NCBI GenBank assembly: GCA_021799275.1 | Contig: JAJZAT010000002.1 | Coordinates: forward strand, 65,293-129,292 | Length of the DNA: 64,000 nucleotides | Source of the DNA: Bacillota bacterium | Lineage (GTDB): Bacteria > Bacillota > Sulfobacillia > JAJZYS01 > JAJYTV01 | Reading direction: 5' to 3' | The notes under the pieces: model-generated | What the model was told of the DNA's origin: nothing | Seen by the model: only the letters and a program-made list of their open reading frames with translations | Databases searched by the model: none | In this document: positions 21,462 to 27,890 of the stretch, in pieces | Layout of the letters: the number at the start of each line of letters is the position of its first letter | Position numbering within the stretch: position 1 is the stretch's first letter | Program-made: the position numbers and the translations under genes

Positions 21462-22238
21462 ATGCCGGAGTACGTGGTGCCGGACGGCGTGCGTATCGGG
21501 CACGTCCACCTGAGCGTATCGGATCTGGAGCGCGCGGAGCGCTTCTACTGCGGGGTCCTGGGATTTGAGGTCATGCAGCGCTGGGGCGACGAGGCCCTGT
21601 TCGCCGCGGCCGGCGGCTATCACCACCACATCGGCCTCAACATCTGGGCGGGGCGCGGCGCATCGCCGGCGCCGCCCGGGCACACGGGCCTCTACCACGT
21701 CGCCATCCTCTACCCGAGCCGCAGAGCCTTGGCCCAGGCCTACCTAAGGCTGCGCGCCGTCCGCTACCCGATCGACGGCGCCGCCGACCACGGCGTCAGC
21801 GAGGCGATCTACCTGCAGGACCCGGATCAGAACGGCATCGAAATCTACAGGGACAGGCCCGCATCCGAGTGGCCGCGCAAGGATGGCGGCATCGCCATGG
21901 GCACGCGTCGTCTCGACCTCGAAGGGCTGCTCGCAGCAGCGAGCTACCAAGGCGACGCCTTGCGCGGCGAAGACGTCCTGACGGCCCTCGCCAGGCTGCC
22001 GCACTTCCGTGGCGACGAGAACGCGATCCGGGCCGAGATCGCCTGGCCAAGCTTCGCGGCGGCCGTGGGATTCGTGGACGAGGTTGCGCGGCTGGCGGAA
22101 CGGCAAAATCACCATCCCGACGTCGACCTCCGCTACCGGCAGGTGCGTCTCGCGCTGAGGAGCCACGACGTCGACGGCGTAAGCCGCCGCGACATCGAGC
22201 TCGCCCAGGCGGTGGAGGATCTGCTGGGCGAGGTCTAG
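21462..22238 (+). CDS. Fusion of a VOC/glyoxalase-like domain and pterin-4a-carbinolamine dehydratase
   Basis: 258 residues in two parts. Residues 1-135 are a VOC-superfamily unit (GHVHLSVSDLERAERFYCGVLGF, then IYLQDPDQNGIEIY), the repeat found in glyoxalases and extradiol dioxygenases; candidate metal ligands are His15, His72-ish and Glu near 129. Residues about 165-255 match pterin-4a-carbinolamine dehydratase (RAEIAWPSFAAAVGFVDEVA, AERQNHHPDVDLRYRQV, LRSHDVDGVSRRDIELA), including the HHPD catalytic motif. A GGGGGAG site precedes the ATG. The dehydratase regenerates quinonoid dihydropterin for aromatic hydroxylases; the VOC partner could be the linked dioxygenase-like activity. The stop overlaps the convergent thrB stop. 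Confidence 0.85.
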   Translation: MPEYVVPDGVRIGHVHLSVSDLERAERFYCGVLGFEVMQRWGDEALFAAAGGYHHHIGLNIWAGRGASPAPPGHTGLYHVAILYPSRRALAQAYLRLRAVRYPIDGAADHGVSEAIYLQDPDQNGIEIYRDRPASEWPRKDGGIAMGTRRLDLEGLLAAASYQGDALRGEDVLTALARLPHFRGDENAIRAEIAWPSFAAAVGFVDEVARLAERQNHHPDVDLRYRQVRLALRSHDVDGVSRRDIELAQAVEDLLGEV

Positions 22239-25482: not shown

Positions 25483-25768
25483 GTATCCGCTGCGGACATT
25501 GCCGCTTGGCGTAGGCTCAATCCGGCAGATCGCTGCAGGCCGGGGAGATCGTTCGGGCCCGAGCCCGGCGGCCCACCCGGTGGGATACCCTCTGACGTAC
25601 GGCGCCGTCCTGGGCTCGATGGCTACGGTGGTCGCGATCGTGGTCGGAGCGACGGTCGTGATCGAGGTGGTGCTCTACCTCGCCCTGCGGCAGCGGTCGC
25701 GCGGCGGCAAGGCGCGATCCTGGGGATCGCAGCGGCGCGGCGACGGCGGGGCCGGAAGCCGTCGCAGG

Positions 25769-25797
25769 TTGGCCGTCCGCGGCCCATCGTGTATATT
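25769..25797 (+). promoter_or_regulatory. Promoter of the candidate selenoprotein gene
   Basis: TTGGCC (25769-25774), exactly 17 bases, then TATATT (25792-25797). Transcription would begin near 25804, leaving a 25-base leader with the GAGG site before the ATG at 25829. It also shows that the open frame upstream of 25829 is not part of the gene. Confidence 0.7.
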
Positions 25798-25828
25798 GCG
25801 CGTACATGCCCTACTGAGGATGAATGAG

Positions 25829-26464
25829 ATGCTTGCTGCGAGAAGAGCGATGCTCGGTGAAGCGCTGCAGGAGATGGACGCGCCCGTGACCGTATGGGTC
25901 CAGGGTGCCGAGGGAGCACGTGAGGCTGCGGACCTCGTGACCCTTCAGGGTCTTCAGCCGCTTCTCGCCGTCCGCCGGGCGAATCCCGTCCCCCACGCAT
26001 GGCTGCCCATCGAGCGCTATCCCGTCTACCGCGTCGGCACGCCCGAATCGCCGCAAACCGCGCGCGCCGGCTTTGTCGGCTTCCCGGAAGGCTTCATGCT
26101 CGACGCCTTCTGCGACCTCGCCGTCGCCGTCTCCCGCGGCGACGCGCCAGCGTCGCCCTTGGCGCGGGATACCTTGCGGCAGATGCGGGATCCCGTGGAG
26201 ATCACGATCCTGACGTCTCCCGGCTGAGGGCGCTGCTGGCAGACCGTGCGTCTATGCCATGCCTGGGCCCTCGCGAGTTCCCTCGTGACGGCGGACGCCG
26301 TCGAGCTCTCGCAGTTTCCCGAACTCGCCGACCGCTTCCAGGTCGGCGCCGTGCCCACGGTGCTCATGCGCAGCCCGAGCCGCGAGGCCACCTTGGCGGG
26401 GGCCTTGCCGGAACCGATGCTGCTTGGGCGCCTGCTGCGGCTGTCCCTCGGCGATCAGGACTGA
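25829..26464 (+). CDS. Candidate selenoprotein: PDO/glutaredoxin-like protein with in-frame TGA (Sec133) in a UxxC motif
   Basis: One continuous frame of 212 codons is interrupted only by TGA at 26225-26227. Upstream residues 1-132 form a thioredoxin-like fold without cysteines at its active loop, then DPVEITILTSPG; downstream the same frame gives GRCWQTVRLCHAWALAS and FQVGAVPTVLM with the cis-Pro (Pro176) of thioredoxin folds, ending at 26464. By family knowledge protein disulfide oxidoreductases and AhpF N-terminal domains are two tandem folds with TPxCPxC in the second; the TGA falls exactly on the first Cys, giving U133-G-R-C136. A SECIS-like hairpin follows at once. Own promoter upstream; GAGG nine bases before the ATG. 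Alternatives are a nonsense mutation or a base error. Role: thiol-disulfide exchange or peroxide reduction. Confidence 0.75.
26228..26272 (+). promoter_or_regulatory. SECIS-like hairpin just after the in-frame TGA
   Basis: Starting 9 bases after the TGA, TGGCAGAC (26237-26244) pairs with GTCT (26250-26253), a bulged A, and TGCCA (26255-26259), leaving the apical loop CGTGC (26245-26249). The loop lies 18 bases after the TGA, as in the E. coli fdhF bacterial SECIS, and contains a G-U pair of bases of the kind SelB needs. An outer GAGGGC (26226-26231) can also pair with GCCCTC (26267-26272). The bases also code for protein, as in all bacterial SECIS elements. Confidence 0.6.
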
Positions 26465-27163: not shown

Positions 27164-27697
27164 CTACACCCCGAGCCGGCCGGAGAAGCGCTTTTGGAAC
27201 TTCTGCAGCTTCGGCGCGATCACGACGCGGCAGTAGCCCTGCTGGGGATTGCGGTGGAAATAGTCGCGGTGGTACTGCTCCGCGGGATAGAAGTCCTGGA
27301 AGGGCTCGATCGCGGTGACGATCTCCCTCCCCTGCCACGCGGGGTCGTGGGGCAGCCGCCCGACGAAGGAGCGTGCCGCCTCTTCCTGTTCTTTCGTCCT
27401 GACGAAGATCACCGAGCGGTACTGGTGCCCGATGTCGGCGCCCTGGCGGTTCAGGGTGGTCGGATCGTGGATCGCGAAGAAAACTTCGAGCAGGTCTTCA
27501 TAGCGGATCCCGGCGGGATCGAAGACCACGTCCACCACCTCGGCGTGCCCGGTGCGACCCGTGCATACGTCTTCGTAGCTCGGACTTGGCACGTGACCGC
27601 CCGCGTAGCCCACCACCACCTCGGAGACGCCACGCAGGCCCTGGAATACGGGCTCGAGGCACCAGAAACATCCTCCGCCGAAGGTTGCGTGCTCCAC
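27164..27697 (-). CDS. msrA: Peptide methionine (S)-sulfoxide reductase
   Basis: 177 residues from a GTG nine bases after GGAGG. The active site is GGGCFWCLEPVFQ with catalytic Cys10; the family also shows GYAGG and GHAEVV (here TGRTGHAEVVDVVFDP), and a resolving Cys near the C-terminus (QQGYC). It reduces methionine-S-sulfoxide in proteins using thioredoxin-like donors. The PDO-like candidate selenoprotein encoded on the other strand just beyond the S51 gene would be a possible donor, which is inference. First gene of the msrA-S51 pair. Confidence 0.95.
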   Translation of the reverse strand: MEHATFGGGCFWCLEPVFQGLRGVSEVVVGYAGGHVPSPSYEDVCTGRTGHAEVVDVVFDPAGIRYEDLLEVFFAIHDPTTLNRQGADIGHQYRSVIFVRTKEQEEAARSFVGRLPHDPAWQGREIVTAIEPFQDFYPAEQYHRDYFHRNPQQGYCRVVIAPKLQKFQKRFSGRLGV

Positions 27698-27890
27698 TTG
27701 GCTCCCCCTCCAACCGGCCGGGCCCGGGTCCGGAATCCTGTACCCTACCATGATAGCCGACAGGCTCCGCCCCCGCCGGGTCGGCAGGCAAACGGGCAAG
27801 TCCGCCAAGGGAAGAGGCAACCACCGTCTGTCCGTCTGCCATGTGCGAGACGCCCGGCAGGCGAAGCTGACGTATCGCGTCATCGTAACG

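Follow-up and report, generated by a model that had tools for sequence, protein, structure and literature searches.

Within the window, that is, the whole stretch of 64,000 nucleotides analysed here, the gene at 25829-26464 (forward strand) very probably encodes a real selenoprotein equipped with a bacterial SECIS element. We have little doubt that its product would be a two-domain, thioredoxin-fold oxidoreductase of the PDO/AhpF-N-terminal-like type, in which the UGA at 26225 is predicted to be read as selenocysteine via a downstream hairpin. Read with the ordinary code, the same gene gives an apparent truncated protein. The frame, the homology, the alternation of U and C among homologs, the selection acting both on the hairpin and on the codons beyond the UGA, and a complete Sec machinery were all obtained by computation.

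Reading frame and domain features

A single frame runs from the ATG at 25829 to the terminal TGA at 26462-26464 and holds one internal TGA at 26225-26227; besides these two, no TAA, TAG or further TGA occurs in it. Rereading this frame agrees with the first-pass annotation, which had described one in-frame TGA between ITILTSPG and VGAVPTV. The read-through product has 211 residues, is related to protein disulfide oxidoreductase (PDO) and contains U133-G-R-C136. It has two thioredoxin-like units, and in the second the TGA takes the place of the residue that opens a CxxC-like motif. This C-terminal fold, with the motif ITILTSPG-U-GRCWQTVRLCHAWAL followed by VGAVPTV, thereby contains both the UxxC site (UGRC) and the cis-Pro motif. 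The TGC codon of C136, the putative resolving partner of U133, lies at 26234-26236 on the same strand, and Cys is found there in 70/70 aligned sequences. Reassignment of the whole code, already dismissed in the annotation, was discarded, since the gene itself ends on a TGA stop.

Directly upstream, where a promoter had also been proposed, the search returned a single match in the region, a sigma-70-like TTGGCC-17-TATATT at 25769-25797 (forward strand), against 0.0 expected in shuffles. Similar -10 elements are present in three congeners, as TATATT in G004 and as TACATT/TACAGT in the two others. In front of this promoter, at 25550-25760 of the window, a DUF1648 membrane-protein gene is shorter by about 770 bases than in G004 (L105 3242-4156); what is left of it, about 40 codons from its start, joins the selenoprotein gene in frame (ORF 25499-26227).

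The N-terminal fold had been described as free of cysteines. It indeed contains no CxxC, but C95 (FCDLA), which is kept in four congeners and not in the sister genus, likely sits in the last helix of this fold, which is therefore probably not cysteine-free. The structure prediction from a four-sequence alignment (pLDDT 37) was used only for a rough placing of helices. Many members of the family lack an N-terminal CxxC, the orthodox copy of the same genome among them, so that this absence does not distinguish the window gene.

Conservation of the site among homologs

Besides the window's own genome, the homolog search covered 100 relatives, and 53 of these 101 genomes gave matches, most with one in-frame TGA. 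From these, 70 homologous genes including the window gene were extracted and aligned. At the site in question 53 of the 70 carry U (TGA) and 17 carry C, and no other residue occurs there, in line with the first-pass annotation, which had proposed to look for Cys or Sec at this codon. On the tree, this U/C label switches at least 10 times (starred branches). TPTUPYCPRAVRLAH, or a close variant of it, is the sequence of most orthodox members. The window gene together with its orthologs, which come from seven genomes belonging to a single GTDB family, reads SPGU[GST][RT]CxQ, with TPGU in one of them; this seven-member clade is supported at 99% SH-aLRT. In family f10 (L026, L036, L077, L094), further diverged PDO paralogs with a TGA (PTUPRC, PGUPRC, PSUPKC) form a second set, which is perhaps, on a weakly supported node (70%), sister to the window clade. 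A search of plasmids for the gene returned two distant matches and nothing else. A 657-aa frame in L041 was considered as a reductase-PDO fusion and rejected, as Pfam matches only its thioredoxin part.

The idea that a Cys codon (TGC/TGT) was turned into TGA by an error in sequencing or assembly could draw on the draft state of the window's genome, which comprises 61 contigs (3.14 Mb, 97.5% complete). However, the identical TGA recurs in separate assemblies, three from the same genus (G001, G002, G004) and three from the sister genus; this refutes a base error, whose probability we regard as practically nil.

Downstream of the TGA, indels among the seven orthologs are confined to the C-terminal tail; within the genus, dN/dS ranges from 0.10 to 0.48, the highest value belonging to the closest pair and resting on few changes. 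The codons downstream of the TGA are under purifying selection. These data bear on the notion that the TGA is a true stop, which would leave a truncated N-terminal domain followed by a decaying or separately started remnant, i.e. a pseudogene. TGA is a normal stop in this DNA, the gene's own end included, and a GTG-started 72-aa frame does exist downstream of the internal TGA. Nevertheless, a true stop is hard to reconcile with a TGA at one exact Cys position in seven orthologs, followed by sequence that is selected and without internal indels, and we consider it very improbable.

The probable SECIS hairpin

Selection at the codon level, present in TGA genes and not in Cys homologs, also supports the SECIS-like hairpin that had been proposed to follow the TGA. 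The hairpin, TGGCAGAC-CGTGC-GTC-TA-TGCCA, occupies 26237-26259 (forward strand); in its core, 26241-26244 pair with 26250-26253 (AGAC/GTCT) around the loop CGTGC at 26245-26249. It begins 9 nt after the TGA, as previously noted, and its loop begins 17 nt after it. The bacterial SECIS model asks for a loop of 3-9 nt, an upper stem of 4-16 bp, a G in the first two loop positions, a distance of 16-37 nt from the UGA and a minimum free energy of at most -7.5 (PMC13188914). The window hairpin agrees with this model in its loop with G at position 2, its 17 nt spacing and a stem that is under selection. As for the energy, the hairpin is the minimum-energy fold of the 23-mer 26237-26259 with -7.1 kcal/mol, which narrowly misses the limit, and the 51-mer starting at the TGA lies within it (-26 kcal/mol, z -2.1). 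In a 38-nt window from the TGA a different fold wins over the hairpin and the single-sequence fold is unremarkable. Folding of a single sequence is weak support for the hairpin on its own; it is the comparative test that lifts it above chance.

In this synonymous-codon test, the same peptide was re-encoded with codons drawn from each gene's own usage, and Cys homologs and other registers served as controls. For the six-pair stem in 43 distinct TGA genes, 228 of 258 pairs were observed against 171 expected (z about 9.6; related sequences are counted as separate, so that z-scores of this test overstate the number of independent events), and this stem was the best of 175 registers. At the same place in the 17 Cys genes, 57/102 pairs were observed against 60 expected (z -0.9). 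Besides, the choice of Arg codon follows that of the partner codon, being CGT in 6/6 ACN genes and CGC in 40/46 GCN genes. Together, the excess over synonymous codons and this covariation point to selection on the RNA and not on the protein, which again argues against a true stop. Taken alone, the window's clade of seven reaches z 3.4 and two other registers score slightly higher; within this clade the case for a SECIS element leans on the wider family.

Sec machinery

The first-pass annotation had named selA, selB, selC and selD as the genes to look for, and the set of tRNA-Sec, SelA, SelB and SelD is complete in the window's genome. It comprises a tRNA-Sec with anticodon TCA, selA (523 bits, cut-off 268), selB (306 bits, cut-off 242) and two selD genes, each with its own in-frame TGA in a GUGCK context (G000:C45:7269-8192, L106, and G000:C59:11824-12750, L107). 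Across genomes, selA exceeds the cut-off in 40 of 42 that have a TGA-bearing homolog, compared to 6 of the 11 whose homologs are all of the Cys type (Fisher p 0.003). In the same-genus genome G002, which is 78% complete, the search gave no selA match, and in G005 selA is only a fragment at a contig end.

A complete machinery is a further point against a true stop. It also speaks against a reading of the UGA outside the Sec system, where Trp or Cys would be inserted by a suppressor tRNA or by near-cognate read-through; since, moreover, the selected hairpin is confined to TGA-bearing genes, we rate such a decoding as exceedingly unlikely, less so only than a base error. Insertion of selenocysteine is the reading that we follow below.

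Relation to known protein families

The gene product is matched by Pfam Thioredoxin_3 at the gathering score. The NCBIfam model TIGR02187 (PDO_seleno_TRX) aligns with profile positions 7-207 of 209 to residues 8-203, so that the homology spans both thioredoxin folds, with 85.1 bits; the orthologs reach 81-94 bits, and in some of them the best stretch is mainly the C-terminal part. Because this score is below the curated cut-off of 185 bits, we class the window gene as a diverged relative rather than as an equivalog. The same genome encodes an orthodox Sec-PDO at G000:C52:57882, which passes the cut-off with 196 bits and of which the window gene is a diverged paralog.

The architecture had been thought to be undescribed, which does not hold. 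Selenoproteins with UxxC have been known since 2006 from Carboxydothermus hydrogenoformans and Symbiobacterium thermophilum as the family "Homolog of AhpF N-terminal domain (Grx-like domain protein)" (PMC1794560), of which ABB15282.1 is an example; reviews of 2022 and 2026 map this family to TIGR02187 (PMC9312934, PMC13188914). With this family the window gene shares a model that covers both folds and a Sec in first position of the CxxC motif. In contrast, it differs in its score (85 versus 185 bits), in SPGU[GST][RT]C instead of TPTUPYCP, in being a paralog of the orthodox copy, and in that its type has so far turned up in no more than one GTDB family. Among solved structures, those of archaeal PDOs of the P. 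furiosus type come closest (E about 1e-13), with the fold region of 1A8L and 1J08 aligned to residues 80-204 of the window gene. These archaeal enzymes rely on Cys and are recognised as a type by a CxxC in each of the two folds, whereas the window gene has only the C-terminal site, and this with Sec. The N-terminal domain of AhpF (TIGR03140, TIGR03143) gives a weak profile match and has a similar two-fold architecture with an active C-terminal fold, but the window gene lacks the fused flavoprotein.

Whether the seven SPGUxxC members form a distinct selenoprotein subfamily, not separately described, appears to us evenly balanced; they would represent a duplicate of Sec-PDO that has lost the TPxxP context and taken on a specialised role in a single lineage, possibly as the reductant of one partner.

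Genomic neighbourhood and proposed mechanism

The gene stands by itself, flanked by an MFS gene in divergent and a peptidase S51 gene in convergent orientation. All seven genomes carry the window-type gene beside the conserved MFS transporter gene, and the synteny, which includes thrB-thrC-MFS and peptidase S51, holds throughout the family. An operon partner deduced from synteny was rejected, as these neighbours point to no redox partner. Two genes downstream, at 27164-27883, lies a Cys-type MsrA, which is kept in the genus (three genomes) and was not found near the sister-genus orthologs. In Clostridium, a selenoprotein glutaredoxin serves a selenoprotein MsrA (Kim et al., 2011, as cited in PMC13188914). 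By analogy, MsrA could be a partner of the window protein, and this is only a lead because the neighbour is seen in just three genomes of the genus. Elsewhere in the window, at 21462-22238, one frame fuses a Glyoxalase/VOC domain to a pterin-4a-carbinolamine dehydratase domain; nearly its whole length aligns in G008 with 62% identity.

For the mechanism, we propose that the hairpin starting 9 nt past the UGA would recruit SelB together with Sec-tRNA(Sec), leading to insertion of Sec at UGA 26225. Judged by the chemistry of CxxC/UxxC oxidoreductases, the U133 selenolate would then attack substrate disulfides, and the mixed selenosulfide would be resolved by the C136 thiol. Re-reduction may be provided by the thioredoxin reductase of the genome (G000:C1:20328; 379 bits, cut-off 343) or by an AhpF-like flavoprotein. 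The window gene probably has a substrate set that is separate from that of the orthodox Sec-PDO.

With this gene, a known selenoprotein family gains a branch that is diverged and specific to one lineage; the general picture stays unchanged. Besides, the stem that is kept in Sec genes by synonymous-codon selection and lost in Cys homologs makes the family a useful data set for SECIS prediction, and at least ten switches between Sec and Cys in one class are informative on the cost and benefit of selenocysteine.
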